The notes below the pieces were generated by a model. That model was not told the DNA's origin. It was given only the letters and a program-made list of their open reading frames with translations, and did not search any database. The position numbers were made by a program, and so were the translations under genes. Source: Elusimicrobia bacterium RIFOXYA2_FULL_47_53 (GTDB lineage Bacteria > Elusimicrobiota > Endomicrobiia > Endomicrobiales > XYA2-FULL-47-53). From it: a DNA stretch of 45,742 nucleotides. Positions 1 to 44,614 of this stretch are shown here, piece after piece. How positions within the stretch are numbered: the first letter of the stretch is position 1; every line of letters starts with the position of its first letter. The DNA lies in assembly GCA_001800315.1 (NCBI GenBank), contig MGVE01000017.1, positions 68,942 to 114,683 of the forward strand. Reading direction: 5' to 3'.

Positions 1-3000
1 TTGGAGAAGATAGTACTGTTAAACGGCTTTTGCAAAACAATATGTCGCAAAGTGTTTCTGCCATGATAGAGGCTTCAGCTCAGGCAGCTATAAGTGTACT
101 CAATGATATGGTCGCAAATGATGTGCCGGCAGTTAAACTTGCTGCTGCTGTGGCATTAGGCAGGCTAAGCCCGCAGCAGGGTGTCAGTGCGCTTTCCGGC
201 TACCTGGTTTCAACTGACGGCACTGATATAAATGTTAGTGAAAATATGCCCCTTTTAATCGGGAGTGTTGCTGATGGTATAAAAAACATATGGGATGATA
301 TGCTCAAGCCTGACAATAACGAAGGGATCTCTTCAATAAACTCTAAAATTGTGGCAATGGATGAGCTTGCCTCTTATGTGGGGCCGTCGGAAGAGGTAAG
401 AGATGCTATCAGACCGCTTCTTTTTTCTGATAATATCAATATTAAATTGGTTGCGCTAGATGCCCTTTCTAGACTTGGCGATAAACAATCTCTGGATATC
501 GTGAAGACGATCCTTGTGAATAATGCTTATTCTAAGGAAGTTAGAATGGCAGCAGCCGCATTCATAGGGAGATTAGGCTCAATAGAAGATCTAGATCTTA
601 TGGTTTCAGCGTATAAAGTTTCAATATATCCAGCACTAAAAATAGCTATTTTAAACGCGATTGGTTCTATCGGAAAACAGGAAGTTGCGCATTCTGTGTC
701 ATTGAGTGTATTGAGAGATATTATAAATAATGAGAAAGGAATTACCCCAAGGAAACAGGCGGTATCGGTTTATGTTTCTTTGTTTAGTTCGGTTGATAAA
801 ATTGATCTCATAAACAGATTGCTTGAAAAAGAGGAAATGACCGATGTTAGGATATTGCTCGCGCAGGTTTTAAAAGATGAAATAGCAAAAATCAATGAAG
901 CTAAGAAAAAGACTAAGGCATTTGAGGCATTGAAAATTAAGGGGAATAACAGCTTGTTGGGAAGCATAGAAAAACTTCTTGCCTCAAAAAATAAGTTTGA
1001 AGCTGTCAAAGGCGCTCCGATGCCGAATGACAGTGAATTATTTAAGATGCCGCGGGCCGAGAGCATGGAACTTGTCAATGCCTTTAAGGATGCCGGAGTG
1101 CCATTAAGCGGCGGTTCCATAGGCGCGCTGATCACAAAGGCTTATGACTCAATAGCCGCCGGACTTAAGGCGCAGGGCAAGGACAAGGAGTTAGCAACCC
1201 TTAACGGCAAAAATGAAATAAAAATCGTTCTTATTGAAAAAGATCAGTCACAACACCTCTTTGAAAACCATCTCAACGATGGATTCATCGGAATAAACAG
1301 AACTTTCCTGGAAATCATAGCACAAAATCCCAAAATTGCGCAGGCCCTTTTCATTGCTGGAATCGCCCACGAGCTGCGCCACGAAGCCGGAATTCCCGAT
1401 GAAGATCTAACGGTTGACGCGAATCTTATGGCGTCTCTAATGCCGTTGTATAATGTGACTTCAGAAGAACTGGAGAATAGTTATCTCGCGGATATCCTTG
1501 AGTCGCCTGAGTTTGTCCTTGAGACACTGAGGGCCGTTCTTGAAATACATGAAAGCGCTATATCCCGTATCACAAAGGCTTTCGGTAAACTGCTTGGCAA
1601 AGGCAGGGAGAAGACAAGAAAATCTGATATTGTAAATAACTCCCTTCTGGCTGAAAAGGCTATAGCCGTTCTTTCAGAGCACGCAAAAGAGCTGATGGGT
1701 AAAACTGAAGCTGAGCTGGCAGCGCTGCTGAAAAATCCGGAGCGGTTTGAGAACGGCGAACTATCCAGGGTTGTCTCCGAAATAAAAGATTATTCCGGTT
1801 CAATTGACCGCAAACCGTTAAATTTGAATATTACTGTTAATGCCCTTGATGTCGGAGCTGAAGTTAACGGTAAAAAAATAGAAATCAATAACAGTATTAA
1901 AAAGATGATGCTGCTTATTCCTGTCATCGCATCTCTCGGTGGGCAGGTGTATATAAACGGCATTTTCGGAACCAGCGAATTATCAAAGCGTTTTCATTCC
2001 AGGAGCGGCGACGGTTCATCTATTACGCGGGTCGGAAACGCCGTCGTGCGCGGCGGATATCAGGTTAAGGAGGAACGGCTTCAGGACGGAACGGTTCTTA
2101 AAGACGAATTTGGCAATGTCTTTTCGCCCGCGAAAGATGTTGAAACCTGGGACGAAAATTACAAACACCTCTTTGAGGTGGCTAATAAATTCGGTGTTGA
2201 TGTTACGGTTGATATGTTCGGCTGGCTCTCTCCCGATGCTGTAACAGCTGAAAATTACAAAAGGCTAATTTACAGGGAAGTGCCTGAGGATTTGATAAAG
2301 AGCATGAAGCTGGGTGTCTCGGACAGGGATATGGAAAGGCTTCAAAATGTAGGATGGGTGATAAATGATAACTATGGAGTAGTAAGGATAAAAGAAAATG
2401 GCGCTGAGCGATTGATACTCTGTAAGCATCTCGGAGTTGGACGCGACCAGTTTGCGTTAAATATTCTTTCAAACGAAGGAAGAAGCTACCTGTCCCGCGC
2501 GATGAAGAAACTGGTTTATGCCGGCGTCAAAGGTTTCCGATTTGATCTTCCTCACGAGGCTTCGCTTGATTATATGGGTGGTTATCTCGCAGATCCAAGC
2601 CTTTTCAACGCTGAAGAAAGGGAATACTTTCAGCAGTGCCGCAAAACCAACCGCGAACCGTGGCAGGATGTATTAGACGAGGTAAACAGCGACAGGAAGG
2701 TACAGGCTGTTTTATCTGGCGGCAAAATTGATTTGGTCGGCGAAACTTATCCGTTCTTCGGCGAAATCCAGAATAAGTTAAGGGTTGCGGGCATGGATTA
2801 CCTTTACGACAAGGGCCTCTATGATGTGTTTAAGTTATACGCGAATAACCCGGGCATGGTTCTGGAAAAATTAAGGCCCGAAGTGGAAAACGCTCTGACT
2901 AAGCTGTCTAAAGGCGAAAAACTCTATATTTCGGCTTCAAATTTTGACGAACAGTCGTTAAAAAATATCTCAGGGCCCGTTGAACAGTTTGTTTCGCTCT

Positions 3001-6000
3001 GCCTGTTCCTTTCAATGCGCAAAGACGCCAGGGTACACCTTGGTATGAGAGAAGTGGCTTACCAGTGCGGAGATGTGTGTTCCATCCCTGGCGGGTCTAA
3101 TAAACAGCTTCAGCATGGCGGCGCGTTTGAGCATCCGGTGATTCCTTTTGAGGAATTGCTCAGCAGGGATAATTTCACTGAATACCTCAACAATGTGCTT
3201 GCCAATTCACCGATAGTTAAAATAGTGTCCAGGTTTGCGGAACTTAAGGAAAAAGCAAAGGGTCCGGCGGTTGAGGTCAGCAATTCTTTCTACAACAGAT
3301 ATTTTACTTTTGTTTCCGAGCAGACTGACGGTTCTTACGCTGTTGCGGTTATTGACTTTATGCCGCAGGATCTTTCAAAAGGCATACTTGAGATTGATAT
3401 GCCGCATCAGTTAGACGAAGTTATCAGAGGCAAAATTGCGAATCGCGCAGGCATAGACATCAATCAGTTAAGAGACGATTTAATAAAAGACAATCTCGTT
3501 GAGGACGCGCTTAAGGATGTGGCGAATGAATATGTGGTGAACGGAGGGCAGGAAAACCTAGATTTAGGGTTTACTCGCGACCGTGGTTCAAGAAAACTTT
3601 ATTTTCATGTCAAGGTGGGCTTAGACGAAATATCCAAAGAGCGGCGCCTGGGTGTTCCGGAGATTCTGACTATTTCAAAAAGAACCTGGAAAGAACAGGT
3701 GGCCGACGCCATATATCAGAATAATCCGGATTATATATTGAATGAACTTTTGAAATGCAAGGATCAGAGGGGAAGTTTTGATAGGGAAAAAGTCATTAAT
3801 CTCATCGGCGCCTGCAGCGGCCCCGTTGAAGAGTTGTACGAAAAGTATACTTCTCAGGCAACCTGGCGGGTAACCAAGGCGCAGAGACAGCTTTCAGCGC
3901 GGGATCAGAAGGCTTTGCTTGATATCCTTGATGAACATTATGGCGGACAGGATAAGGCTGTTCCCAAGCTAATCCTGTCAATGTTTCTGCTGGATGCCGC
4001 CGATGCCGAAGAAGCGGCTGAGGATAAAGCCGGAGCCTCCGGTAAAGGAACAAAAAATATTGATTTAAACCTTTTCGCGAAATACAGGATATTTAAAGAT
4101 ATGGCAAAGCAGGTATGGGCGCTTCGCGGCAGGGCAAGCTATATAGTTTCTGCGGAGATTTCGTACTGGGGCGGTGGGCTGGGTGCGGTTATGGTATTTT
4201 TGTTGAAGGGCGAGACCAGGCTGATAAAATACCTAAATGTTAAGGATGCCTCAGCTGCTTCAATTGAACTGTTTTACAAGAATAACACCAAGGGTGAACC
4301 GCTGGATTACGCGAAGGAATGCGGCGTGGACCTTGAAATAGACAAGTTGACAGGCACTCCAAAGGTGATTGATTATTATATTGCGCTCGGGAACTCCTCA
4401 AGAAGAGCCAGAGCCTATGTCGGAAAAGATAAATACGGATGCACAAGGTACCTGATAGAGGATGTGGACGGCAATGACGGCAGAGGATATCAGAGCTCAT
4501 CCAATGTTCTGTACAGCTACAGGGAAGGCGACAAAAACCCTCAGAACGCGACTAAATATGAGAGCATGGCTTTTCTGAGCGTGGCTTCCGCGGAGTTGAT
4601 ACGCATATTGGAGGCCCAGCGCAAAGACAGGCTCGGAGCAAATTGGAAACCGGCTTTTGTGCACGCCAACGACGGACAGTGCGGATTCCTTGCGGCAGTA
4701 ATAAAGAGTAAATACAGAAATGACCCGGTGATGAATAAGATGCTCCACTATTTTACAACTCACACTTACGCGAACCGGGGGTACTGGTGGAATGGCGGTA
4801 AAGACAGCGTCGCTGTGGGTTCCGAACAAATGAATCTGGAGCGATATATGCAGTATCTGGGTATATCTCCAAAGTACTGGACGGCTGCATTCCGCATGGA
4901 AGACGGCCAGTGGGTTGGTGATGACTCTTCTCTTGGTGTGCGCCTGAGCGACGGTTCCAACGCGGTTGCGGCAGATCACAGGGATGACCAGAGCGCGATT
5001 GACAGGTTATGGACCAGGCTTGTTGGAACACCCAACGGCGCCGACCCGAATCTGCTTGGCCAGTACCTTAAGGAATCATATGCTGAGGCTTATAAGCAGT
5101 TGTCCAATGACCCTGATAACGAAGAGCAGCTGGACTTAAGGCATCCCGGCCCCAAACTTTTCTGGGCCGCGAAAGCAAAGGCGCGCGAGAAATTAAATCG
5201 TTCGGGAATAATAACATCCACCGGAAGAAGGATTGTACTTAATGTTCCGGAGGAACAATATGGAAAACCCGGGAGCTCTGCCTGGCTTTCACAACTACAG
5301 CAGGTTATTACCAATGTTGGGCGCGCTGTGCCTGAGAAAGTCGGCCGCGGGCTTGTTTCATACGACTCCGTTGATCCTGAAGGCCGTGGCGGCCCGGCAA
5401 GCAATGAAAACATAATAGCCGCAGTAAAAGCGGGCAGACAGGTGGTTTTAGTGGGTGTTGAACAGGGGTACGACCTGAGCAAGCAGATAGTCGCCCGTTT
5501 CAGGGATTTGGAGCAGTTAATCGCTGACCGCAAAGCCGGTAAGCGACTGGCGCCCGGTGAAACTAAAGAGCAGTATTCGGGAGATTTCTTCTTTGTCAAT
5601 AAGGTCACGGCGGACGAAAAGATGCTTGTTTTTGCCGCCAGTAATATGCACATACACTGGCCGTATGGCCCATATACTCACAGGAAAGAGCGGTTGTATC
5701 CATCAAAACCGTTGTCGGCATTGCTGAGCTCTCTTTCAAGGGCGGGCGGTTCACTTGCCATGGCGATAGGCAGAACCAAAAAGGGAACCGGTGCGAACGA
5801 GTATACCGAATCGCCGGCGCTTGACGCAATAGTTGCAGGGCCCTGGTCGGAGGAAGGCGGGGTAGGCGGTATCATTGACCAGGGTACGGAGATATCCGAA
5901 AACGGCAACGGCAATACCTACAGATTTGAATATTCGGAACAGGGTTTCCGTGACCTGCTGACGACCGCGGGACATCTCTGGGACACAGATAAAGAAATGT

Positions 6001-9000
6001 ATGCCAGGCATTCGCTTAACACAAGGCCGCTGAACAGCGTAATGCACTACCTGAATTCCGGCTTCCTTGGTTATCTCCTGCCAATGTGCAGAATTGCCGA
6101 TGAAAAAGCCAGGCAGGAAACCGTTGACGCGGAGCTGATAAAATCCGTGCGTGCCAGCATTAACGGCATCAAAGACAATAAAATGAAAATAGAAAAGATT
6201 TCAAATATGCTTTTCGGCGCTCATGCGGACGGTACACGCTTAAGCGAGCAGGAAGCGGTCATGTATAATTTTGTTTTTAAACCTGAGATATCACAGATGA
6301 ATTTTGGTTTCCGCTCGGGCAGTTACGCCTCGGGCCTGGATGAATTTCTCAACATGAAACTTAGATTTGATGAAAATGACAAGGCCATTCTTATTGACCT
6401 TAAACATCTTCAGAGCGGGCATTATACCGGACTCATGTCAAAAATATTTAATGACCTTGATTGCCTTGACGAAGTAAATAACTGGAGCAAAAACTTTATG
6501 TCGGGGTTGGACAACGATAACGCTGAGATTATGAAGAAAGACCGCCGTATTACCGTGCTGTTTGAGAATCTCGCGGCTATGATGTATTCGGAACTTCTGG
6601 CGGCAAGGCTTGATTCCTCTGATTCCAAAGTCGTCTCAATCAGAAAAAAACTGGACAGGGTCATCCAACACATAAACGGCGACAAGGAAGTCATCAGGAA
6701 AATATTGACTGATCCGGTTAATCCTTACGGCCTCTCATCTGGAAATAGAGTCTACGGGCTTAAGGGGCTTGCTGAAAGCATGAATGAAATTGATGTGGTT
6801 AATTTTAAGAAATATGTCGCTTTTCTTTTTGAAGGCCTTAAGTGCCAGGGTGATATAGTTGAATTATTCGCTACTGTGCATACCGCCGATGATTTTAAGG
6901 CAACGCTTCAGAGCCTGATCGTAGCGCTCCAAAGCACCCCTAATGCTGAGCATAACCTTATGAATGGTGTGATTGAGCAAGAGAATGCCGTGTCTGCCGC
7001 GACGAACCTGCTTGCGAAAATTACTTTTGTCAGTGATTTAGAACAGGTGTTCGCGCAGAATCCGTTTATAGCGGCTCCGCAATACGGCTACGAAACTACG
7101 GTTCCTTCTAAAACTCAGGAAGTTGCTTCGGCCGAGGCTCCGGTCGCGGCGCCGCAGCTCCCCGAGACACAGAAAACCTCTCCAGCCGTTATCGCCGCGG
7201 AGGAGGTAAAACCAGTTGCCGCGGCTCCCGTTGCCCCTTCCAGTAAGAAGAGGCAGCGCGTTAGAGCAAAAGAGTCAAAGAAAAACACGGGAATACCCGT
7301 TGGAAATATTGTGGCTAATGTGCGTGAATCATCTCCGAGGACTATGGCCGAGAAAACAGCTCTCGCGCTTGTCCAGCCGTGGCTTGCGATTGAGGGTATG
7401 AACGATTTAGTCGGGAGAACCATGTATTTTATCGGCGAGGTAAATGCGACTCTCCTTATAAATGTGATGAAGCTTGGCATGAAACCGGTTCAGGTAACAC
7501 TGTTAAACGACACTCTGCTGAACAATGAGCTGTTAACCGAGATAAATGCCGCGAATGTTATCATTGGTAACGATAAGGTTGTTCAATTAACTTTCTTTAA
7601 GCCCGTCAGCGGAAAAGGCAATGCTTCGCCGGTTATTATTGCTCTTTCGGTTCCGGGCATAACCGATAACCTTCGGAATGTAGAAGAGCTTAACGGCGAA
7701 CAGAAGCAGCTGCTTTCTGCAGGTTCCGCCCAGGTAATGAGAGCTATCGCCGAAACTCCCGTATTGAGAAGGCAGATAGCCGAGGCCTACAATATTGATT
7801 TTGACAATGCCGTTATGCCGGATATTGTTCAAATATCAGACGGCCAGGCAGTAAGCCTCGCCGAGGAAATAAACAGTAATAGTGAATTTTTCGGCAACAC
7901 GCTTCTTGAGGTTGTGCTGAGAGATTCTTCTGCTGAAGGGCTTGTGAGGCTTGCCAAAGAGCCCGAGGTTCTTGTTAAGGCGGCGGATGGCGTCAAAGAA
8001 ATATATCCCTGGGCGGAAAATAAAATAGTCCGCTCAATAGCGCCTGCGGACGATCTTGAGGCTTTGAAAGCCGATATGCGGATTTATGAGCCTGCTATAA
8101 AAGTCAGGCAGAGCGGCCAGTCGCCGGTTGCTTCAGGCATTATCTTTAAGTACACCATAGGACAGCTTCGCAATCCAAGGATAGATTATGGAATAGGAAA
8201 GATTGACAATTACCTTGCGGAAACCGTTGTCAGCAATAAAGACTACTATTCCGACACCGCCCTGTTAGCGGATATCCTGAACGCGAAAGGGCATATAAAT
8301 GTCGGCCTTGTTGATCTGCCCGGGTTAGAGGCCAATCGGCAGGACGGCGGTAACGCGGTTGATGATAATGCCGAGAAGAGTGTGCTCGCGGCGGCGAGAA
8401 ACCGCTCTCTTGGGGATACCTCTTATAATGAGTTTAGAAATGACATAAATAATAAGAAATATTTTGAAGGTGAAGCCGATGAATATGTTTATGCTCAGTA
8501 TGCTGCCGAGCAGGCCCTTAAAAAGCATATTTTCAACAACCCCGGCCTTGCCGACACAAAATTCATGTTTAAAATTGATGCTTCGCGTATGTCTCCGGAA
8601 AAGCTTGAGGCGTCCGTTAACCGCTTGTTCGCGCTCGGTTTTGCCGGAGCCAATATTGACTTTGACGATATCTCTAATGATCAGGTGGAGGCTTTTACCG
8701 CGGTGCTCAATAAACTGCAGTCAAAGGCTCAGGACTCAGGCGCTATCCTGATGGCTTCCGGAAAAGTAAAGGCCAGAGGTGTCATGGTTGCCAAAAAGGC
8801 CGATCCGGCCAATGGCGCCGCCGAGATTGATATGCTTACCAGCGCCGGCAAGGATATTTACATAGAAATGAAAGAAGGTAAAATATTTAAGAAAAAAGAT
8901 GAGGCCAAAATTGTTGAGTTCCTTGACGCCTGGAATCAGTCGGGAGCCGGATTTATCATTGACAACTCGCTGAAGCAAGGTGTTTTAGACAGAAAATTCA

Positions 9001-10055
9001 GGTTGAATGGGGATGTTTCGGGGTTTGATATAACCGATGTGCTCAATAGAATAGCCCTCGGCAATATTTCCCGGCCGGCCTCAAGGCAGGAATTGTTAGC
9101 CAAGGCAAGGCTTCAGGGCCAGAACCTTAGCGGCAAGGCTGCCGTTAACTACACTTCCTGGGAAGAAAATCCGGCTAAAAAACAGCTGCACGGACTGCTT
9201 GAAGCCTTCGCGTCCGCAAAGTCCGACGCAAACGCGGAGCTCATGAAAGGGTTTGAAGGTAAAATTGTTTCAGCTCTTGATAGCGCGGGACTGAGTTCTC
9301 CTGCGGTGTCAGTTGCTTTATCAGGCCTGGTAAAGCAGATAGAGGCCTCTAAGGACAGCCCGGAGGCGCAGGCGGTGCACTACGAGCGCCTCGCGGCTTT
9401 TGCCAGAGGGGCCATGGAAGGCGCCCTTGAAAATATATATTACAAAGAGCTTGGCTATACTGAAGAGCCGTTTGTGAATGATTCGGACAGGTCAAAATTC
9501 CTTGCCCTGTTGTTTGCGGCGGACGCGAATCCCGACGGCCTCGCTGTAGTAGTATCAGTTAAAAAGAATATGAAGAATGTCAGTACAATTGACGAGGAAA
9601 GCGCCCGCAAAGCTATGGCATATATCAATGCCAACTTGACTGAGCTCGGTTCTGCGGCAGGAATACTAAATAAGAGCGTGGACTTCCTTCAAGGTTCGGC
9701 CGGCGCTTTCAGCGTTGTGCAGCTGCGCTCCTCTGTTTCTCAGCTCGCGACCCACGAGGGGCTTGTCAGCCTGTGGCCTCAGATCCTTCTTGTTATGTCA
9801 ACAATAGCCGAGTCTCAGAACTCATTGTCAGCTGCCGAAATGAACGCGAGGATTCTGGCTGATATCACGCCATTTGTCGGTAGAATAAATAACACGGGAA
9901 TGCTGCCGAGCGCCGATAAGTCCGGCGTGCGGCCTGTTGCCATCACACTCGTCATATTTGATGTTGTTTCTCAGCGCAGGCAGAAAGAGATCGTTAAGAA
10001 GACATCCGAATCAATCAATATAGCCGCGCTGAACCTGTTCCAGGCAGCTCAATAA
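1..10055 (+). CDS. Giant multidomain protein (5' partial): HEAT-like repeats, GH13-like amylase domain, GT5 glycogen-synthase-like domain
   Basis: The frame is open back to the window edge (first complete codon at 3), so this is probably the 3' part of a longer gene; the TTG at 30 has no ribosome site and is unlikely to be the start. At least 3,350 residues are visible. Bases about 60-960 encode HEAT-like alpha repeats. HELRHE (1368-1385) is an HExxH zinc-protease-type motif. Bases about 1900-3400 look like a GH13 barrel: GFRFDLPH (2532-2555, nucleophile Asp), GETYPFF (from 2739, acid/base Glu) and SNFDEQ (about 2937-2954, third Asp; the usual NHD reads NFD). Bases about 4080-6090 resemble GT5 glycogen synthase: AEISYWGGGLG near 4150, VHANDGQCGF near 4660 and GGVGGIID near 5860; the usual Lys of KTGGL is absent. 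An Ala/Pro-rich linker (about 7080-7300) precedes roughly 900 residues I cannot assign. A role in alpha-glucan metabolism is inference. A receiver protein follows 14 bases downstream. Confidence 0.85.
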   Translation, partial: GEDSTVKRLLQNNMSQSVSAMIEASAQAAISVLNDMVANDVPAVKLAAAVALGRLSPQQGVSALSGYLVSTDGTDINVSENMPLLIGSVADGIKNIWDDMLKPDNNEGISSINSKIVAMDELASYVGPSEEVRDAIRPLLFSDNINIKLVALDALSRLGDKQSLDIVKTILVNNAYSKEVRMAAAAFIGRLGSIEDLDLMVSAYKVSIYPALKIAILNAIGSIGKQEVAHSVSLSVLRDIINNEKGITPRKQAVSVYVSLFSSVDKIDLINRLLEKEEMTDVRILLAQVLKDEIAKINEAKKKTKAFEALKIKGNNSLLGSIEKLLASKNKFEAVKGAPMPNDSELFKMPRAESMELVNAFKDAGVPLSGGSIGALITKAYDSIAAGLKAQGKDKELATLNGKNEIKIVLIEKDQSQHLFENHLNDGFIGINRTFLEIIAQNPKIAQALFIAGIAHELRHEAGIPDEDLTVDANLMASLMPLYNVTSEELENSYLADILESPEFVLETLRAVLEIHESAISRITKAFGKLLGKGREKTRKSDIVNNSLLAEKAIAVLSEHAKELMGKTEAELAALLKNPERFENGELSRVVSEIKDYSGSIDRKPLNLNITVNALDVGAEVNGKKIEINNSIKKMMLLIPVIASLGGQVYINGIFGTSELSKRFHSRSGDGSSITRVGNAVVRGGYQVKEERLQDGTVLKDEFGNVFSPAKDVETWDENYKHLFEVANKFGVDVTVDMFGWLSPDAVTAENYKRLIYREVPEDLIKSMKLGVSDRDMERLQNVGWVINDNYGVVRIKENGAERLILCKHLGVGRDQFALNILSNEGRSYLSRAMKKLVYAGVKGFRFDLPHEASLDYMGGYLADPSLFNAEEREYFQQCRKTNREPWQDVLDEVNSDRKVQAVLSGGKIDLVGETYPFFGEIQNKLRVAGMDYLYDKGLYDVFKLYANNPGMVLEKLRPEVENALTKLSKGEKLYISASNFDEQSLKNISGPVEQFVSLCLFLSMRKDARVHLGMREVAYQCGDVCSIPGGSNKQLQHGGAFEHPVIPFEELLSRDNFTEYLNNVLANSPIVKIVSRFAELKEKAKGPAVEVSNSFYNRYFTFVSEQTDGSYAVAVIDFMPQDLSKGILEIDMPHQLDEVIRGKIANRAGIDINQLRDDLIKDNLVEDALKDVANEYVVNGGQENLDLGFTRDRGSRKLYFHVKVGLDEISKERRLGVPEILTISKRTWKEQVADAIYQNNPDYILNELLKCKDQRGSFDREKVINLIGACSGPVEELYEKYTSQATWRVTKAQRQLSARDQKALLDILDEHYGGQDKAVPKLILSMFLLDAADAEEAAEDKAGASGKGTKNIDLNLFAKYRIFKDMAKQVWALRGRASYIVSAEISYWGGGLGAVMVFLLKGETRLIKYLNVKDASAASIELFYKNNTKGEPLDYAKECGVDLEIDKLTGTPKVIDYYIALGNSSRRARAYVGKDKYGCTRYLIEDVDGNDGRGYQSSSNVLYSYREGDKNPQNATKYESMAFLSVASAELIRILEAQRKDRLGANWKPAFVHANDGQCGFLAAVIKSKYRNDPVMNKMLHYFTTHTYANRGYWWNGGKDSVAVGSEQMNLERYMQYLGISPKYWTAAFRMEDGQWVGDDSSLGVRLSDGSNAVAADHRDDQSAIDRLWTRLVGTPNGADPNLLGQYLKESYAEAYKQLSNDPDNEEQLDLRHPGPKLFWAAKAKAREKLNRSGIITSTGRRIVLNVPEEQYGKPGSSAWLSQLQQVITNVGRAVPEKVGRGLVSYDSVDPEGRGGPASNENIIAAVKAGRQVVLVGVEQGYDLSKQIVARFRDLEQLIADRKAGKRLAPGETKEQYSGDFFFVNKVTADEKMLVFAASNMHIHWPYGPYTHRKERLYPSKPLSALLSSLSRAGGSLAMAIGRTKKGTGANEYTESPALDAIVAGPWSEEGGVGGIIDQGTEISENGNGNTYRFEYSEQGFRDLLTTAGHLWDTDKEMYARHSLNTRPLNSVMHYLNSGFLGYLLPMCRIADEKARQETVDAELIKSVRASINGIKDNKMKIEKISNMLFGAHADGTRLSEQEAVMYNFVFKPEISQMNFGFRSGSYASGLDEFLNMKLRFDENDKAILIDLKHLQSGHYTGLMSKIFNDLDCLDEVNNWSKNFMSGLDNDNAEIMKKDRRITVLFENLAAMMYSELLAARLDSSDSKVVSIRKKLDRVIQHINGDKEVIRKILTDPVNPYGLSSGNRVYGLKGLAESMNEIDVVNFKKYVAFLFEGLKCQGDIVELFATVHTADDFKATLQSLIVALQSTPNAEHNLMNGVIEQENAVSAATNLLAKITFVSDLEQVFAQNPFIAAPQYGYETTVPSKTQEVASAEAPVAAPQLPETQKTSPAVIAAEEVKPVAAAPVAPSSKKRQRVRAKESKKNTGIPVGNIVANVRESSPRTMAEKTALALVQPWLAIEGMNDLVGRTMYFIGEVNATLLINVMKLGMKPVQVTLLNDTLLNNELLTEINAANVIIGNDKVVQLTFFKPVSGKGNASPVIIALSVPGITDNLRNVEELNGEQKQLLSAGSAQVMRAIAETPVLRRQIAEAYNIDFDNAVMPDIVQISDGQAVSLAEEINSNSEFFGNTLLEVVLRDSSAEGLVRLAKEPEVLVKAADGVKEIYPWAENKIVRSIAPADDLEALKADMRIYEPAIKVRQSGQSPVASGIIFKYTIGQLRNPRIDYGIGKIDNYLAETVVSNKDYYSDTALLADILNAKGHINVGLVDLPGLEANRQDGGNAVDDNAEKSVLAAARNRSLGDTSYNEFRNDINNKKYFEGEADEYVYAQYAAEQALKKHIFNNPGLADTKFMFKIDASRMSPEKLEASVNRLFALGFAGANIDFDDISNDQVEAFTAVLNKLQSKAQDSGAILMASGKVKARGVMVAKKADPANGAAEIDMLTSAGKDIYIEMKEGKIFKKKDEAKIVEFLDAWNQSGAGFIIDNSLKQGVLDRKFRLNGDVSGFDITDVLNRIALGNISRPASRQELLAKARLQGQNLSGKAAVNYTSWEENPAKKQLHGLLEAFASAKSDANAELMKGFEGKIVSALDSAGLSSPAVSVALSGLVKQIEASKDSPEAQAVHYERLAAFARGAMEGALENIYYKELGYTEEPFVNDSDRSKFLALLFAADANPDGLAVVVSVKKNMKNVSTIDEESARKAMAYINANLTELGSAAGILNKSVDFLQGSAGAFSVVQLRSSVSQLATHEGLVSLWPQILLVMSTIAESQNSLSAAEMNARILADITPFVGRINNTGMLPSADKSGVRPVAITLVIFDVVSQRRQKEIVKKTSESINIAALNLFQAAQ

Positions 10056-12511: not shown

Positions 12512-13321
12512 ATGCTGATAAAGTCAACTGTAAATCTCACTAAATTAATTGTTTTCTCCGGCTTGTTTTTTTTTAGCGCCTGCTCCAAAACGACTTATCC
12601 AAGAGAGACTATTGAAAACGATGTGGTGCGGATCGTTGAAAGGGAAACCGGCCTTTCAAGTTCTGCCTCCCTGGTCGGCAGCACATTTTATTTAAAAGTT
12701 GCCCTGCCTGATCTTATAAATACGCAGGCGGATATCCAGAAAGAGGTAATGAAAAATCTTCAAAAGGTTAATCTTGCGATAATACGCGTATCGCTTAGCA
12801 CCAACGCTAAAATAGATTACCTCGTTATGATAGTTGACCTCCCCGGATGGAAAACAAATTTTTCAATTACTCAGAGGCTTGAAGACCTCAAAGGGTTCCT
12901 TTACCACCGTATATCCAAGGCGGATTACGAGGAGCGAGTTATCTATGACCTCAAGGATCCCAAGGGGTACGATACCGAGCCGTTTAAGGATATCAGCAGG
13001 AATGAATTTATCGTAAAGCTCATTCTTTCCAAGGTAAACTGGATTAAGATGTCAAACCCTTTTGTTAATGCCGCGCTTGGGCTCAAACTTGACCTGGTAA
13101 ATTACACTGACAGCAGTATTGTTTTAAAGACATCGGTTATGAGAGAAGGTAATGAGTTGGCTTCCGGTTATATTGAAAAAACTCTTTCCGAGTGGGCCAA
13201 TAAGGTTGTCGCAAAATACAAAGCCTATAATTTTAAGGAACTCAAGGTAGTTGACGAGAAGGGGAAACCTATTATTGATATTAAGATAAGCAGTTCTGCC
13301 GCGAACTCAAAAAACCGTTAA
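12512..13321 (+). CDS. Predicted lipoprotein of unknown function
   Basis: A 269-residue protein with a lipoprotein signal peptide: a charged start, a hydrophobic stretch at about 11-22 and the lipobox FSAC with lipidated Cys24. The mature part is mixed alpha/beta with several DLP and LKDPK-like segments; I do not recognise a family. It begins 4 bases after the FtsH-like gene and ends before a strong terminator, so it is the last gene of that transcript. The pairing suggests an envelope quality-control role, with the lipoprotein possibly serving as partner or substrate of a protease that lacks its own periplasmic domain. That is inference from position only. No obvious membrane helix follows the signal peptide. 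Confidence 0.8.
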   Translation: MLIKSTVNLTKLIVFSGLFFFSACSKTTYPRETIENDVVRIVERETGLSSSASLVGSTFYLKVALPDLINTQADIQKEVMKNLQKVNLAIIRVSLSTNAKIDYLVMIVDLPGWKTNFSITQRLEDLKGFLYHRISKADYEERVIYDLKDPKGYDTEPFKDISRNEFIVKLILSKVNWIKMSNPFVNAALGLKLDLVNYTDSSIVLKTSVMREGNELASGYIEKTLSEWANKVVAKYKAYNFKELKVVDEKGKPIIDIKISSSAANSKNR

Positions 13322-13455: not shown

Positions 13456-14865
13456 ATGCAAAAAATATTATTTAAAAATGCAGCAAAAACCTTGTTTTTT
13501 GCCGTATCGGCGCTTCTACTGCTAAACACCGATGGTTTTTGCATTACAGATAATTTTTTGAAGGCTTGTCTTGATTTTGCCCAGGCGCACGATAAAAGGC
13601 TTGCTATTGCAAAAGAACAGCTCTCCCTTTCAAACCTCAGGGTAAACCGTTCCGGAAGATCCTTTTTCCCCGGCATTTATCTCCAGAAAAGATCGTCCCG
13701 CGGCACGACGATTACCGATGAATACGAGTCCGAGGAGCTGGGCATAAGGGCGTCTCAGCCTATTTATGACGGCGGCAGGCTGGTATCTTCCTACAAATAT
13801 GACAAGTTTTTTCTGGAAAGCGCAAAACTGAATGTCACTAAAACAAGGGAAGATCTCTTTTACAGAGTTAAAACCACATACTATGAGATGCTCAATGCCC
13901 GGGCAGAACTACAGAGGATAAAAAACACATTTAACGAGATTAATAAACTTTACGAGAAGACGAAGCTTGAATACCAGGCAAAGGCCATATCGGAGTTGGA
14001 TCTTTTTGAGTCAAAGAATTTCAGGGATAAAGTTGAGAACATGTATCGTTCTTCCGAAATGAACGCGGCCTTCGCGGAGAAAAAACTTTTAGCCGTCCTG
14101 GATATCAAGTCCCTTGATCACATAGTCGCGACCATGGAAGACCCTCTGCTCGTATTCCCTGACAATATAGCTTTCACGCTTGACGAATGCCGGCGCTTCG
14201 TTCTTTCTAATAATATTGATTCCAGGATCGCGAAGCTCTATATAGACATGAGCAACCTGAAAAAAAAGATCATCAGGGCCAGGGTTATCCCGAAAATTTA
14301 TGCCGAGGGTTTTTACGGCCAGAGCGGCGAGGCGTTTGTCACCGAGCCATTAAAGCTGGCCACGGTGTGGAATGTTTCTGGTAAGTTGTCCTGGGGCCTT
14401 TGGGGCAACACGCTGGAAGCCAGCCAGACCCAGGAAAAAGCTATTCCCAGAGAAGTTATGGATGTTTCCACGCGCCTTGACAGCACAAGCACTGATATAA
14501 GGCTTTCTCTGTTTGACGATATGGGCTATTTCGTTGAGTCAAAAGAGGGTGATATAGGCGTGTTGCAGTCCGCGGTGGATTACAAAGACGCGATAAATAA
14601 GGCTCTGCTTGAACTTGAAAAGTTCTATAATGATTATCAGCAGTCGTTGTGGAGCGTTTTGTCGTCTAAAGACGACATGGAGCTGAAACAGCGAAAGCTC
14701 GGAGTGCTTCGCAAAAGAAACGAAGTTTACGAGGCTTCAACGATAGAAGTTATGGACGGGGTGTATAAATACGCAGATTCCGTAATAGTTTATACGCGGG
14801 TGCTCTCGGCAAATTATATCGCGGTTTGCGAGCTTGAGAGGCTTACGCTTATGCCGTTAAGATGA
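13456..14865 (+). CDS. TolC-family outer-membrane efflux channel
   Basis: A 469-residue exported protein with an N-terminal signal peptide (hydrophobic core about 12-24), followed by long heptad-rich helices typical of the OEP/TolC fold: segments around 105-180 and 375-450 are charged amphipathic helices, with short beta-type stretches between. TolC proteins form the outer-membrane and periplasmic tunnel of tripartite pumps. The next genes encode the membrane-fusion protein and two RND pumps, so this is almost certainly their exit channel. No other in-frame Met lies within the signal peptide, which supports ATG 13456 despite the missing ribosome-binding site. The specific substrate cannot be read from sequence. 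Confidence 0.85.
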   Translation: MQKILFKNAAKTLFFAVSALLLLNTDGFCITDNFLKACLDFAQAHDKRLAIAKEQLSLSNLRVNRSGRSFFPGIYLQKRSSRGTTITDEYESEELGIRASQPIYDGGRLVSSYKYDKFFLESAKLNVTKTREDLFYRVKTTYYEMLNARAELQRIKNTFNEINKLYEKTKLEYQAKAISELDLFESKNFRDKVENMYRSSEMNAAFAEKKLLAVLDIKSLDHIVATMEDPLLVFPDNIAFTLDECRRFVLSNNIDSRIAKLYIDMSNLKKKIIRARVIPKIYAEGFYGQSGEAFVTEPLKLATVWNVSGKLSWGLWGNTLEASQTQEKAIPREVMDVSTRLDSTSTDIRLSLFDDMGYFVESKEGDIGVLQSAVDYKDAINKALLELEKFYNDYQQSLWSVLSSKDDMELKQRKLGVLRKRNEVYEASTIEVMDGVYKYADSVIVYTRVLSANYIAVCELERLTLMPLR

Positions 14866-14878
14866 TCCGGAGGGTAAA

Positions 14879-16114
14879 TTGAAAATTGTTTCCGCCGCAA
14901 CAGGCTTTTTAATGAGGATATTTGATTCGGTTATAAATGTTTATTTGAGATTAGAGGAAAAAGTTCCCGAAAACATTCCGATAAGAAAAATAACCATAAT
15001 CGGCGGGTCGGTTATACTTCTGACCATTGGTTTTTTTGTTGCACGGGGAATCTTTGGAAAGGACGCTAAAGAAAGCAAAGAAGCTCCCGTAGCCCAGGTG
15101 AAAGTTAAAAAAGCCAAAAAAGAGATGCTTTCGGATAAGTATTCCGTTCTCGGAACCATCAGGGGAACGATTGAAAACGACCTGAAATTTGAAATTGAGG
15201 GGACGATAGCCAGATATAATTTTGCCGAGGGCGCGAGGGTAAGAAAAGGCGAGATCATCTGCTCTCTTGACCCCAAGGACGCCATTTCGCGTTCAGCCTA
15301 CGCCAGAAGCAAATTTAACGCCGAGCGGTCTTCCTATTATTCATCGGCGCAGAGAATGAAAGTTTACGGCGACCTCTATAAGATGAAGGCAATCTCTGAG
15401 ACAAAATATAACGAGGCGCGCTACGAGACCGACGCGGCAAAGGAAAGAATGGACGCGGCTTCCTCGGAACTTGAACTGGCCCAGTCTAATATGGAGAAAA
15501 CCAATCTTTCGGCTCCGGGTACCGGCGTGCTCGCGGAAAGAATTATTCAGTCCGGCGAGTTTGTGACCCCTCATGATGTTGTCGCGAAATTTATAAGCGG
15601 CGGCGACATTAATTTTGAAGTGGATGTCCCCGAAAAAGATGTTGAAAAAATTAAGGTGGGAATGAAAGTTAAGGTGCTTTGCGATGCCTATAAGGATGTT
15701 GAATTCTCAGGGAAGGTCAAAGAAGTCGCTCCGACCGTAAAGGAGAAGACCAGAACTACCGTCGTAAAAATTGAGATCCCTAATGATGAGGGTAAACTGC
15801 GCTCGGGCATGTTTGCCAGAGGCGATATAATATTTACCGAGATTGAAGACGCCATTGCCGTGCCTCAGGATACTGTAATTGCTCTCGGCGCCGAGACAAA
15901 GCTTGTCCCTCTGTTAAAGCCTGATCCTACTTCGCCAAATCACGGCATAATAGAATTGAGGCAGGTTACGGTTGGCCCTACGATTGGCAAGCAGGTTGTT
16001 GTTTTAGACGGTATCAATCCCGACGAAATGATTGTGGTTGAGACTCAGGCTCAGTTGTCCGACGGCCTTCAGGTGCAGTTTCAGGAGGTTTTAGACGACA
16101 TGCCTAAAATGTAA
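14879..16114 (+). CDS. RND efflux membrane-fusion protein (HlyD/AcrA family)
   Basis: A 411-residue periplasmic adaptor linking the RND pump to TolC. It starts at TTG 14879, supported by GGAGGG at 14869-14874, five bases upstream and just after the tolC-like stop. It is anchored by one N-terminal membrane helix (about 37-57) rather than a lipid. Then come a biotinyl-lipoyl-like half (FEIEGTIARYNFAEGARVRKG), a helical hairpin (about 138-205), the second lipoyl half (LSAPGTGVLAERI), a beta-barrel domain (about 240-315) and a membrane-proximal domain. Length and domain order are normal for the family. The roughly 37 residues before the helix are a longer cytoplasmic leader than usual. Confidence 0.9.
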   Translation: MKIVSAATGFLMRIFDSVINVYLRLEEKVPENIPIRKITIIGGSVILLTIGFFVARGIFGKDAKESKEAPVAQVKVKKAKKEMLSDKYSVLGTIRGTIENDLKFEIEGTIARYNFAEGARVRKGEIICSLDPKDAISRSAYARSKFNAERSSYYSSAQRMKVYGDLYKMKAISETKYNEARYETDAAKERMDAASSELELAQSNMEKTNLSAPGTGVLAERIIQSGEFVTPHDVVAKFISGGDINFEVDVPEKDVEKIKVGMKVKVLCDAYKDVEFSGKVKEVAPTVKEKTRTTVVKIEIPNDEGKLRSGMFARGDIIFTEIEDAIAVPQDTVIALGAETKLVPLLKPDPTSPNHGIIELRQVTVGPTIGKQVVVLDGINPDEMIVVETQAQLSDGLQVQFQEVLDDMPKM

Positions 16115-16159
16115 TAATCCGCACAGCGCCGTAACAACTCCTCACCCTCAGGCAAAATA

Positions 16160-19100
16160 ATGATAAAGCTTGGCATTAGAAAACCCGTCACTACATTGAT
16201 GCTTATCATAGCCATCATTATTTTCGCCGTAGTAAGCTTTCCCAGAGTCCCCGTAGAACTTTATCCAAACTTTTCATTCGGAGAGATCAGCGTTATCACC
16301 CGCCTCAGGGGCGGTATTCCGGCCACGGAAGTGGAAAAGGCCGTTACCAGGCCCATGGAAGAGGTTTTTTCCGAGGTAAACGGTTTAAAGCAGGTGACCT
16401 CCGCCTCCCGTGAGTCTGAATCGGTCATAGTCCTGTCTTTTCATCCCGCGGTAAACCTCAATTTTGCCGTATTAGACATCAGGGAAAAACTTGCCACAAT
16501 TAAGCACCGCCTCCCGCGTGAAGTGGAAAAACCGGTAATTGCCAAGTTTCAGCAGTTTGATGTTCCTGTGCTTATCATGGCGCTGAGTTCCGAGACTTTA
16601 AGCCCGGAACAGCTGCGCGCTATTTCCGAAGACAAGATCAAGGAAAGAATAATGCGCGTCGGCGGGGTGGCCAATATTGAGGTTGGCGGCGGGCAGGAAC
16701 GCAAGATTCTTATAGATATTGACAACGGCAGGCTCTTATCCTACAACCTCCCGATTACCAGCGTCGTTCAGCTTATCAATACAACTAATATTTCTGTTTC
16801 GGCCGGCAGTGTTGAAAAAATGGGCGACCGCTATATTGTAAGAGCCACCGGGGAATATTCCAGTGTTAAGGAGATAGAGAATACCGGTATAGGCATAACC
16901 CCTCAGGGTTCAATCATAAGGCTCAAGGATATCGCCAAGGTCAGGGATTCATTCTATGAACCTTCTTCTTTCGCGAGGCTCAATGTCCGCCCCGTGGTAT
17001 CTCTGTATATCCAGAAAGAATCCGCTGCCAACACGATAACGGTGGGCAAGAAAGTTTTGGAACAGGTGGAACTGCTCAGAAAAGAGTTTGCCAGGGACAT
17101 GACTATAACCGTTGTAAAAAATGACGCCGAGTTCATTCAAAACGCCATATCTTCCCTTGAGGTTTCCGTCATAGAGGGCGGTTTGCTTGTCATGGCTATC
17201 CTTTTCATATTTTTAAGAAATCCCAGAACCATAGGAATAATAGTAACGACGCTTCCCATAAGCCTTTTGCTTTCCGTTGTCCTGATGTATTTTGGCGGGT
17301 TGTCCTTTAATATCATGACAATGTCGGGGCTTGCCATGGGGCTGGGCAACCTTATGGATAACGCCATAGTGATTCTTGAAAATCTGGGTTACCATCACAG
17401 AAAGAAAACATTTAAAGACCACGAGACCATGGTCATTGAAGGAACCAGCGAGCTGGTGATGCCCATAACGGCCTCAACTATTTCAACGGTAATAGTCTTT
17501 CTCCCGCTGGTGTTTTTAGACCCGGAGATAAGGCGGCTTTATGTGCCGTTTGGCATGGCGATTGGGTTGTCTCTTTTCGCCGCTCTTGTCGGAACCCTGA
17601 TTTTTGTGCCTCCTCTGTGCGTAAAGATAAAGGGAGCTTTTACCTTTTCAGAGCCTGCCTGGTACAAACCCGTCGTAAAAAAATATATCAAGATTTTGAA
17701 GTTTGTGCTAAGGCAGAAGCTGCTGGTTTTTGCGGCTGTGATCGCGCTTTTTGCCGGCGGGGTAATGATATTTATGACAAGAAGCTCCGAGTTCATGGAG
17801 CCGGGCGAGGCTAACACTTTCAGGCTCGGAATTCAATTTCCGCCCGGAACCAGGATAGAGCGCTCTAATGAAATGGTCAGGCAGATAGAGAAAGCCCTGC
17901 TTCTGGTCCCTAATGTGGAACGCGTGTCGTCCAGGATAGAGAAACTTCACACCTTCGTGGAGGTAAAGGTTAAACTTGATAAGTCCAGAGTTATGGAAGA
18001 ATTCAGAAAAAAATTCAAGGATTACGCCCCGGCGTTTTTGTATTATCAGGAATCGGCGGAAAGCTCGTCGCGGGAAGTTTTTGTTGAATTTTACGGATAT
18101 GACTACGGCGTGCTCAAGCAGATAGCCTATGCCGTTTCAGGGAAACTTCAGCAGGTTAAAGGGATAACTGACATTAAGATAAGGATGAGGGAAGATGAGC
18201 CCGAGATAAATATAGTTGCCGACCAGAACAGGCTCGCGCATTTTTCCATTTCCACCTATTACCTTTCTAACAGCCTGCACAACATGCTGCGTGGCCTCGT
18301 GGCTACTTATTACAGAAGCGAGGGTAAGGAAGTGGAAACGATAGCCAGACTTGAGCCGGGAACGGTCAGGAATTCGGAAGATCTTCCGTATTTAAGGCTG
18401 GTCACTCCCCGCGGAGAGATAGCCGCCGTTAACCAGCTTTCTGATATACGCCAGGTCACGACTACTCAGGAAATATGGCACAAAAACAAAAAAAGGTTTA
18501 TTCAGATCAGCGTCAACAGAAATAAAATGGGCCTTACGGAATGCGTGGAAAAAATGACAAAGGTTCTGGGCGGGTTGAAGTTTCCGAAAGATTACACATT
18601 CAGTTTTTCCGGCGATTACGAAAAAACAGTTAAGAGCAGGAAGGACTTCGCTTTGGCGCTTACATTGACCGTTATTCTTATCTATATGACGCTCGCTTCG
18701 CTGTATGAATCTTATTCTCAGCCGTTTTTGATTATGCTGTCCCTTCCGCTTTCCGTAATGGGGGTTGCGTACATTTTGAAAATATTCGGGATGTCCATAA
18801 GCCTCGGCGTCTGGATAGGCATGATGATCCTGGGCGGTATCGTTGTAAATTCTGCTATTCTGATAGTGGAAAAGATAAACCTTGTCCGCGATACGGGCAG
18901 AGGTATTAATTACGCCGTGCTGGAAGCCAGCAGGGAAAGATTTAAATCCGTTTTAATGACCTCTCTTAACAACATCATAGGACTTCTGCCGCTGGTGTTA
19001 AACCGCGATGAGGCGGCTTCCATGTGGCGTTCACTCGGGATGACTGTTATAGGCGGAATGTTTTCCGGCACACTTCTGACTCTTTTTGTAATCCCCGCGG

Positions 19101-19249
19101 CCTACATGCTTCTTCATCAGATCAGCGAGGGCTCCGGTGACATCTTGCCGTATATTAAAAAACTGGCGTCCGGACAATATAATAAATTAAAAAATCGGAT
19201 AGACTCCGCGAGAACGCTCAGAAACCAGGCCCAGAATAAACCAACCTGA
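16160..19249 (+). CDS. RND efflux pump subunit, first of a pair (HAE1/AcrB-MdtB type)
   Basis: A full-length 1,029-residue RND inner-membrane transporter with the usual twelve-helix plan: TM1 at about 12-27, a large porter loop, a TM2-6 cluster from about 336, a second loop, and TM7-12 in the C-terminal half. The TM4 proton-relay motif reads LMDNAIVILEN with Asp400; the second Asp of AcrB is Asn, as in many HAE1 pumps. In TM10 the segment GIVVNSAILIVE lacks the AcrB Lys. It follows the fusion protein by 45 bases with only a weak ribosome site, and a second RND gene follows 21 bases downstream. It should drive proton-dependent export through TolC; the substrate is unknown. Confidence 0.92.
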   Translation: MIKLGIRKPVTTLMLIIAIIIFAVVSFPRVPVELYPNFSFGEISVITRLRGGIPATEVEKAVTRPMEEVFSEVNGLKQVTSASRESESVIVLSFHPAVNLNFAVLDIREKLATIKHRLPREVEKPVIAKFQQFDVPVLIMALSSETLSPEQLRAISEDKIKERIMRVGGVANIEVGGGQERKILIDIDNGRLLSYNLPITSVVQLINTTNISVSAGSVEKMGDRYIVRATGEYSSVKEIENTGIGITPQGSIIRLKDIAKVRDSFYEPSSFARLNVRPVVSLYIQKESAANTITVGKKVLEQVELLRKEFARDMTITVVKNDAEFIQNAISSLEVSVIEGGLLVMAILFIFLRNPRTIGIIVTTLPISLLLSVVLMYFGGLSFNIMTMSGLAMGLGNLMDNAIVILENLGYHHRKKTFKDHETMVIEGTSELVMPITASTISTVIVFLPLVFLDPEIRRLYVPFGMAIGLSLFAALVGTLIFVPPLCVKIKGAFTFSEPAWYKPVVKKYIKILKFVLRQKLLVFAAVIALFAGGVMIFMTRSSEFMEPGEANTFRLGIQFPPGTRIERSNEMVRQIEKALLLVPNVERVSSRIEKLHTFVEVKVKLDKSRVMEEFRKKFKDYAPAFLYYQESAESSSREVFVEFYGYDYGVLKQIAYAVSGKLQQVKGITDIKIRMREDEPEINIVADQNRLAHFSISTYYLSNSLHNMLRGLVATYYRSEGKEVETIARLEPGTVRNSEDLPYLRLVTPRGEIAAVNQLSDIRQVTTTQEIWHKNKKRFIQISVNRNKMGLTECVEKMTKVLGGLKFPKDYTFSFSGDYEKTVKSRKDFALALTLTVILIYMTLASLYESYSQPFLIMLSLPLSVMGVAYILKIFGMSISLGVWIGMMILGGIVVNSAILIVEKINLVRDTGRGINYAVLEASRERFKSVLMTSLNNIIGLLPLVLNRDEAASMWRSLGMTVIGGMFSGTLLTLFVIPAAYMLLHQISEGSGDILPYIKKLASGQYNKLKNRIDSARTLRNQAQNKPT

Positions 19250-19270
19250 GCCTTATAGGATGATATTATT

Positions 19271-22200: not shown

Positions 22201-22402
22201 CAGGCCCATCTTGATGACAACTCTGACAACGATACTTGGCATATTCCCGCTTGTTTTCGGAGGCAGTACGAACGCGACCTCTTCTATGGCTGTGGCTATA
22301 TGCGGAGGGGAAACGCTCAGGATGGCGCTGACCATCCTTTTTGTGCCGTCCGCTTATCTGTTCGTGGAGGAATGGCTTGAAAGCAGAAGAAGGGCAAAAT
22401 AA
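19271..22402 (+). CDS. RND efflux pump subunit, second of a pair (HAE1/AcrB-MdtC type)
   Basis: A full-length 1,043-residue RND transporter, clearly different in sequence from the one just upstream. It has TM1 at about 12-29, a TM4 motif VIDNSNIVLES with Asp422, and VVNGAIVLVETYNQ in TM10. A charged insertion at about 254-272 (rich in Gln, Arg and Glu) sits in the first porter loop. It starts at ATG 19271 with TAGGAT upstream. Tandem non-identical RND genes served by one adaptor and one TolC recall MdtABC, where two subunits form mixed trimers. Alternatively each could form its own homotrimer and share the adaptor. It is the last gene of the efflux operon. Confidence 0.92.
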   Translation: MSMINFPVEKPVTTTMIFLAVFLLGMISWSRLPQELFPSLEFPQISIVTRYEGAGPEEAEKLISKMIEESVGTVRNVKRVSSISKEGMSLVIIEFRWGTDMNFAALEVREKVDLVKERLPRDSQEPVVLKFNPFKSEAMVLSASYNRDEDDPWKLVELRQFCKKNIKDELERIEGVAKVELRGGEQKEILVEVDKGRILANQLSLLDIIKTLRETNITYPAGMVKEENYEYMVKTVGEFKNISEIGDVLLIKEETQADQQRSERQRRNARQGSVIYLRDVASISEAIKDPTGYSRFNQRGNVSLSIFPQSGSNLLNVSKLVRKKIKELELKIPKDVNVEIIYDQSDFIKASLQNIYNDAMAGGIISFIIILIFLKDIVASAIILVALPISILFALSFMYFADISINTMSLGGLALGVGMVIDNSNIVLESIMAYLKQHPDMPKKELIKEAAKREVGAVVGGTFTTVAIFLPFIFVSGVAGQLFKQMALTITFSMIASAMVALFLVPRLALFMRFEKYKKMDFSMRILDYIPPKLEKFLSLPRKVTWRYLFIYLFVGLVMLYFIPKEFMPKLDERRFTLNLTLPPQTTLSVTNNLVRRIETYLFSVPEVESVVSNVGSSGEGVGDAIESLGVNQARIIAKLAKRGRPSTAVVVELNDEIKKWQVEGLEAEFVTQQGMFGSAMGSSSGLMIELKGMNLAALKKKSDEIKADLAKMPQLYGLKTIPADLVPELKLNIDREKASIFGLNVQDISATLLAAIKGYEATKFKLKDEEYPIRVRLRPEDRSDLSRIGELTVYSPFGRNIQLLQISELVFVKTMPEIRRIEGQRTYLMMANVRGSFDSAVKDIRELLDDVIAPSDDMAYNIAGETLALQESMSSAVFAVVLAIVIIYMILASQFESLLQPLIIMVTIPMGLTGAVYALFLSFKTLNSVSMQGMIILIGLVVNGAIVLVETYNQMRKAEPHRDLRELVFEGTVDRVRPILMTTLTTILGIFPLVFGGSTNATSSMAVAICGGETLRMALTILFVPSAYLFVEEWLESRRRAK

Positions 22403-27352: not shown

Positions 27353-27389
27353 AATTTGCTTTTTAATATGAAATCCGGAGGAAACTAAT

Positions 27390-28682: not shown

Positions 28683-28692
28683 GGGGATTTCC

Positions 28693-29631: not shown

Positions 29632-29640
29632 GGAGTTGAA

Positions 29641-30774: not shown

Positions 30775-30787
30775 GAGCAGATAAAAA

Positions 30788-31381: not shown

Positions 31382-31398
31382 GGAAAGGATAATTGATT

Positions 31399-35251: not shown

Positions 35252-35496
35252 GCTAACCCCGGATTTTGCGATAGAGTTCAGTCATGGAACCAGCAAGCTG
35301 TCATCCCAGAAATGTTCTGTCTGGGAGGACAGAAAAGTGCCGTCATCCTGATCTCCCGAAGGGAGAGAAGGATCTCTTTTGCTGGGAAGGGGTATGACGA
35401 CATAAAGAAGTCTGTCATTCACGGTATTGCAGGCGGGAATCCGGTCCCAGACGAAGCAATTTCTGTAAAGTCAAATCGCTTAAAGGGCAAAATTGT
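35252..35496 (+). repeat. Repeat island between the adaptor and pump genes
   Basis: The 245-base gap holds palindromes: TCCCAG/CTGGGA at 35304-35326, and a nested hairpin with TCTCCC-GAA-GGGAGA at 35352-35366 inside ATCCT (35345-35349)/AGGAT (35369-35373). The gatctcccg...gagagaa layout recurs at 40288-40310. Three copies of a GTCATYC-like start occur. A 62-codon open frame here (35312-35500) is translated repeat and is not a gene. Confidence 0.7.
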
Positions 35497-38884: not shown

Positions 38885-38938
38885 GTGGGCATATTCATGG
38901 AGCAGGGGGATACTATCCACTCATCAAAATTGCAGCCT

Positions 38939-42052: not shown

Positions 42053-42072
42053 GGATACATAAATATTGTTTA

Positions 42073-44613: not shown

Positions 44614-44614
44614 T

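Follow-up and report, generated by a model that had tools for sequence, protein, structure and literature searches.

Divergent GH13-like and GT5-like modules in a giant, putatively membrane-anchored open reading frame of an uncultured Endomicrobiales bacterium

Most giant bacterial open reading frames (ORFs) lack annotation, and what they do is still an open question. The window (the whole 45,742-nucleotide stretch of DNA analysed here; G000:C17:68942-114683, where G000 is the window genome) opens with such an ORF, for which a preliminary description had proposed that an amylase-like (GH13-like) and a glycogen-synthase-like (GT5-like) segment place glucan breakdown or transfer and glucan synthesis on one scaffold. 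The question raised by this locus is whether that proposal holds. We interpret the window ORF as the C-terminal 38% of a membrane-anchored alpha-glucan-processing giant of an uncultured Endomicrobiales bacterium, and we assign this reading a probability of roughly 0.6.

Within the window, the ORF (3..10055, + strand; 3,350 aa) is in a single frame and open at the left edge. The upstream contig places its start 16,342 bases upstream of the window, at an ATG at C17:52600 with GAGAGGGTAAA and an in-frame TGA ahead of it. The full gene (C17:52600-78996) encodes 8,798 aa, 2.6 times the length seen before, of which the window holds residues 5449-8798 (full-protein numbering is used below; numbers in the window part, P0001, are full-protein numbers minus 5448). 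No internal stop or frameshift interrupts the 26.4 kb, and GC content by codon position follows a coding pattern along all of it. The preliminary description of a one-frame gene of more than 3,350 residues, with HEAT-like repeats and a true start beyond the left edge, is borne out, and the N-terminus, where it had left room for a signal peptide, is signal-anchor-like (hydrophobic segment at residues 39-57). The coordinates of the modules and of the neighbouring genes are given in Table 1.

Table 1. Features of the giant ORF and of the genes downstream of it, in window coordinates
Feature	Position	Strand	Residues, evidence or conservation
Giant ORF, C-terminal part	1..10055	+	Residues 5449-8798 of the 8,798-aa ORF
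HEAT-like repeats	114..692	+	P0001 38-230, full protein ~5480-5680; PF13646, E 8e-10; alphaRep chains, E 4e-5
HExxH module, putative zinc peptidase-like	939..1541	+	Residues 5761-5961; HELRHEAG at 1368-1391; motif only
Divergent GH13 module	1848..3380	+	Residues 6064-6574; hhalign against GH13 of giants
Helical segment	3444..4058	+	Likewise conserved in G001 and G005, where it precedes the GT5-like module
GT5-related GT-B module, full-length	4113..6095	+	Residues 6819-7479; PF08323, hhalign, Foldseek
Pro/Ala-rich, then basic linker	7107..7292	+	Sequence
C-terminal module, ~915 aa	7308..10055	+	Residues 7884-8798; common to the giant of RIFOXYA2_FULL_50_26 (G001)
Receiver-domain protein, 136 aa	10070..10480	+	Conserved next to giants in G001
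Short FtsH-like AAA+ membrane protease, 548 aa	10861..12507	+	Adjoins giants in G000, G001, G091, G005 and G004
Lipoprotein-like gene	12512..13321	+	Syntenic in G001, G091 and G093
TolC, membrane-fusion protein, two RND transporters	13456..22402	+	Order identical in G001 and G093

A chimeric assembly, or a chance in-frame reading of a broken gene, would also bring the two segments together, and the source is indeed a MAG-like assembly in 20 contigs. In addition, the GH13 module is an insertion: in G001 and G005, the HExxH and GT5-like modules adjoin, with no GH13 module between them. However, 26.4 kb of stop-free sequence with a coding base pattern throughout, the recurrence of the module order elsewhere (in G001 for the HExxH, GT5-like and C-terminal modules, in G005 for the first two) and the presence of a GH13 module of the same branch in other giants largely refute this explanation, and we give it next to no credence. 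The check for a frameshift or chimera, which the preliminary description had named as a possible refutation, found no frameshift in the ORF and, for its right part, no chimera.

A hydropathy scan, on which alone the segments below rest, indicates ~12 further possible transmembrane (TM) segments between residues 1156 and 5201 and one weak candidate at 6085, within the GH13 module; it detected no clear TM segment between the GH13 and GT5-like modules, so these two modules are inferred to lie on the same side of the membrane. The overall topology, and which side that is, are likewise inferred. A LysM domain lies at residues 1514-1569 (PF01476, E 6e-5). The HExxH module is common to two other giants, three in all. 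Another HExxH motif, HELAH, occurs in the giant of G005 on contig C28 (G005:C28).

The GH13-like segment had been described as having the Asp/Glu/Asp residues of the family and lacking the flanking His residues of regions I and IV, and the GT5-like segment as lacking the Lys of KTGGL. As a single sequence, the GH13 module has no match to PF00128 in Pfam, even at E<=10, and when one or two sequences were searched directly against Pfam and the PDB, no GH13 match was significant (best PDB matches, alpha-amylases at E 1.5). Support comes mainly from profile-profile comparison. Related modules of the same branch are present in giants of G007 and G219, and with hhalign a profile of this branch matched the GH13 domains of the giants of G222 and G005:C28 with probability 96 and E 3.8e-9, over 308 columns that include regions I-IV. 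The latter two domains match PF00128 at 1e-23 and 2e-9, and match other GH13 proteins at E 1e-16. A joint GH13 profile retrieved 248 PDB sequences at E<=0.1, and the 60 matches listed were all of GH13 type, a result that owes part of its strength to the two clear members. The candidate nucleophile D6296 (window 2544-2546), the candidate acid/base E6362 (window 2742-2744) and the third Asp, D6430 (window 2946-2948), are aligned with those of the clear GH13 domains of G222 and G005:C28. Region I reads DMFGW and region IV NFD, both without the usual His, which is missing in all three members of the branch (window, G007 and G219). A GlgE-like reading of region II (DLPHE against DNPH) was set aside. 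The AlphaFold model of the module is poor (pLDDT 40) and unusable alone; many of the best matches in a fold search with it were TIM barrels, none at E<=0.001. The predicted TIM barrel of the GH13 module is supported mainly by profile-profile comparison.

In contrast to the GH13 module, the HEAT-like repeats and the GT5-like module were detected directly in Pfam, the latter with a PF08323 match of 34.3 bits against a cut-off of 22.7. An alignment of the window module with five relatives (26-32% identity) matched canonical GlgA over its full length with probability 99.6 and E 3e-24, and matched GlgP at E 2.5e-12 (hhalign), with GlgB as the negative control. With the AlphaFold model of the module (pLDDT 62, pTM 0.52), Foldseek retrieved glycogen phosphorylases and a starch synthase from the PDB (probability 1.0, E values of 8e-14 to 9e-12). 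The TM-scores of these matches are low (~0.2-0.3), which a mis-orientation of the two Rossmann domains would produce. The model thus supports a GT-B fold and no detailed structure. We conclude that the GT-B fold is well supported. At window 4170 the module reads GGGLG (YWGGGLG), without the Lys of KTGGL; the other members have W/S/V/E/I-type residues, and no Lys, at this position. The catalytic His of HNxxY (window 4761-4763, TTHTYAN) and the Arg/Lys pair of SRLxxQK (Arg at 5322-5324, Lys at 5337-5339, GRAVPEK) are kept, and so are GGL and the Asp of HxHDW. The region of the EPCGL Glu aligns poorly, and the equivalence of an invariant E in TGANEYTE is uncertain. The module does not have the PLP Lys that phosphorylases (GT35) carry in EASGTxxMK (window TGANEYTESP); G093 (EASATGYMK) and G222 (EASATSMMK) have it. 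A first scan of genome contigs with the GT5-like module yielded 13 pattern matches and no relative.

Both segments of the preliminary description are thus upheld, together with the Asp/Glu/Asp triad, the absent His residues and the absent Lys. The profile search and structure prediction that it had proposed succeeded in part: Pfam recovered HEAT and GT5 but not GH13, and Foldseek recovered GT-B, whereas the TIM barrel did not reach significance. Because the GH13 His residues are missing also in two other, distant copies in which the triad is kept, and because the catalytic His and the Arg/Lys pair of the GT5-like module are invariant in all six sequences, the alignments suggest that the activity of both modules has been altered but retained and has not decayed, activity itself being inferred.

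The window giant is a member of a family of paralogous giants headed by a common N-terminal module of ~515 aa (IQDLHCH ... VTGGFHT). This module was found in 55 of 251 genomes of the phylum at E<=1e-6, often in at least six copies, and heads ORFs of up to 11,814 aa. The window genome itself encodes at least five giants with the module (4,652-9,302 aa) (L002:2712-4253, C6:258632, C14:7983, C20:61273 and C6:162749). In the window giant the module sits after the signal-anchor, matches profile A3, which includes the window copy, at E 6e-229, and is 30-42% identical to those of five other giants. The 80 named matches listed are all from Elusimicrobiota, class Endomicrobia; G001 (RIFOXYA2_FULL_50_26; G001:C88 is MGVF01000088.1) belongs to the same family as the window genome. 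Omnitrophota was rejected as the home of the giant family, since the named relatives among the matches listed are all Elusimicrobiota. PF04187 (Tiki/ChaN) as the identity of the N-terminal module has only weak backing: the distant G219 copy alone matched it, at E 5.6e-5 and below the cut-off, and six closer members did not.

Recurring co-occurrence of glucan enzymes is observed in related giants. In G093 and G091, the N-terminal module, a GT35-like domain, GH77 and GDE_C stand in one chain; in G219, the N-terminal module is combined with a GH13-like domain and GDE_C; in G005:C28, with CBM48, Maf, Dus and GH13; in G010 and G011, with a GlgX-like GH13; and in G007:C63, with a GT-B domain. The giant of G220 contains GH77 (2e-97) and a GT5-like domain, that of G222 a GT35-like domain, GH13 and cytidylate kinase, and those of G097, G001, G003 and G005 a GT5-like domain; the contigs of G220, G222, G097 and G001 end within the ORF, and the N-terminal module is therefore not seen there. 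GH13-like and GT5-like modules occur together only in the window genome, and the other giants combine other glucan families. Local profiles detected a glucan module in only one of ~11 giants that had been chosen irrespective of such modules. Both points weigh against the glucan-processing reading. The unmistakable GT35, GH77, GH13 and GDE_C domains of the relatives strengthen the proposal of glucan breakdown or transfer and synthesis on one scaffold, with catalysis inferred. The window genome also encodes separate canonical GlgA, GlgP and GlgB, so the giant would be an additional, localised system.

In L054 and L055, GT35-like, GH77 and GDE_C domains form a complete-looking glycogen-breakdown set in a single ORF. 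In L241 (G222, distant family), GT35-like and GH13 domains adjoin within residues 80-1530, in reversed order relative to the window. Housekeeping or signalling domains (Dus, Maf, cytidylate kinase, nucleotidyltransferase, protein kinase, GGDEF and methyltransferase) occur in the sister giants L242, L241, L093 and L094.

The main rival to the glucan-processing reading, and a live one, is that the giants are scaffolds that grow by engulfing fragments of the genome's own enzyme genes, the GH13-like and GT5-like parts being non-catalytic building blocks or binding domains (lectin-like, adhesive). Many housekeeping domains in sister giants (Dus at 7.5e-27, Maf at 1e-22, cytidylate kinase at 6e-20, and nucleotidyltransferase, protein kinase and GGDEF) fit it, and with such unrelated domains in the family the glucan modules may have come in through the same general uptake of enzyme domains. 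It is also in keeping with the strong divergence of the two modules and with their missing KTGGL Lys and GH13 His residues; together with the failed AlphaFold model of the very divergent GH13 module, these losses count against glucan processing. However, three observations speak against passive capture: relatives of 21-32% identity retain both the catalytic Asp/Glu/Asp triad and the residues of the GT-B pocket, glucan enzymes co-occur in several independent combinations, and the copies of GH77 and GDE_C found at this locus look intact. We regard it as possible, though rather unlikely.

A shared neighbourhood is also observed. In G001 the giants are followed, as in the window, by the series receiver, FtsH-like protease, lipoprotein, TolC, membrane-fusion protein, RND and RND; in G093, the GT35-GH77-GDE_C giant is followed by the lipoprotein, TolC, membrane-fusion protein, RND and RND; and in G091, the corresponding giant is followed by the FtsH-like and lipoprotein genes. 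That giants with different glucan enzymes occupy the same locus is an argument for a role in common. A partnership specific to giants was rejected for the FtsH-like gene, because 115 of 199 phylum genomes conserve it and it occurs also where the N-terminal module was not found. Farther downstream, as read from the translations, the window contains an apparent cluster for sulfur amino acids (Rrf2 regulator, sulfhydrylase, cysteine synthase, homoserine acetyltransferase and MetW) and thiamine (ThiM and ThiE) at 26921-32798, a CusCBA-like metal efflux set at 32826-38739, and, at 38885-45571, a PorV-like outer-membrane protein together with secreted proteins whose ends are DUF11-like.

That the chain remains intact is inferred, and the locus allows for a polyprotein, exported or inserted as a long chain and cut into separate enzymes by its own HExxH modules or by the neighbouring FtsH-like protease. 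Conservation of the HExxH module in three giants, adjacency of the FtsH-like gene to giants in at least five genomes and the Pro/Ala-rich linker between modules would suit such processing. However, there is no evidence of cleavage sites, HExxH is a short motif, and the FtsH-like gene is phylum-wide, including genomes without a detected N-terminal module; we consider a polyprotein very doubtful.

Giant ORFs in Elusimicrobiota, and GH13-GT5 fusions elsewhere, are already known. Fungal alpha-1,3-glucan synthase Ags1/Mok1 has GH13 and GT5 in one chain (PMC5753165) and, like the window giant, has a signal peptide, an amylase-like part ahead of a glycogen/starch-synthase-like part, and multiple TM segments. 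It differs in being about a quarter of the size, in having (Ags1) a TM segment between the catalytic parts, where none is seen in the window giant, and in lacking HEAT, LysM, HExxH and the shared N-terminal module; the likeness is one of domain order and carries no claim of common descent. The GlgA-GlgB fusion of Criblamydiaceae and Waddliaceae (Chlamydiae; PMC11046441) likewise joins GT5 and GH13 in one bacterial polypeptide, but it consists of canonical GlgA and GlgB in another domain order, its branching part is reported inactive, and it is not giant. Eukaryotic glycogen debranching enzyme combines GH13 with amylo-1,6-glucosidase (PMC4837477), resembles the giants of G219, G091 and G093 in pairing a GH13/GH77 clan member with GDE_C, and also has a divergent GH13 that is recognisable mainly by the four conserved regions; the window protein lacks GDE_C and carries the GT5-like module instead. 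The window genome's own GlgA (GT5) and GlgP (GT35) show full-length GT-B homology to the module but are separate genes elsewhere, and the module has lost the KTGGL Lys and has no Lys at the phosphorylase PLP position.

Very long, TM-rich ORFs, several per genome, are a feature that the window giant shares with giants reported from Omnitrophota, such as the 39,678-aa ORF of 'Ca. Velamenicoccus archaeovorus' (PMC10066038), and from Elusimicrobiota, a phylum listed as having many huge proteins, with no function or COG assigned to them (PMC11573180); carbohydrate-degrading interpretations of giant ORFs are cited in PMC12057145. Neither the shared N-terminal module nor glucan pathway content was found in PMC10066038 or PMC11573180, and the combination in the window giant was not found in the literature searched, which did not cover bioRxiv preprints, so that an earlier mention is not excluded. 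Giant ORFs of related phyla have been interpreted as predatory or host-interaction surface proteins (PMC10066038, PMC12057145), which in the present case would attack or bind other cells and turn their glucan modules on foreign storage or capsule glucans. LysM, the many TM segments and the exported-type N-terminus are compatible with this, but no module points to a foreign target, and a set of phosphorylase, 4-alpha-glucanotransferase and debranching enzyme is that of own-cell glycogen turnover. We judge this interpretation unlikely.

According to the glucan-processing reading, the GH13 module would cleave or transfer alpha-glucan chains by a retaining two-step mechanism, with Asp 6296 as nucleophile and Glu 6362 as acid/base, and with subsites changed, since the region I and IV His residues are gone. 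The GT5-related GT-B module would add glucosyl units to, or remove them from, the same glucan, and this common substrate, tethered at the membrane, would be within reach of both modules. Substrate and donor are inferred, and a sugar-nucleotide donor would be lacking if the C-terminal half were periplasmic. A broader possibility, which we put forward only tentatively and as more speculation than expectation, is that Elusimicrobiota have envelope-anchored alpha-glucan megaenzymes, in which phosphorylase/synthase, glucanotransferase and debranching sets are carried on single chains under a common export module and are swapped between lineages at a conserved locus, the tethered glucan being handed from module to module.

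The common N-terminal module at the head of one phylum's giants provides a handle to collect such proteins, and recognisable glycogen enzymes within them provide a catalytic function that lends itself to direct tests. Should the modules prove active, an entire bacterial storage-polysaccharide pathway would reside on a single membrane-bound chain; if they are inactive, giant genes would be shown to grow by enzyme-domain capture. The clearer glycogen-breakdown enzymes of relatives, at the same chromosomal place, suggest that a single giant bacterial protein can accommodate whole sugar-polymer pathways.
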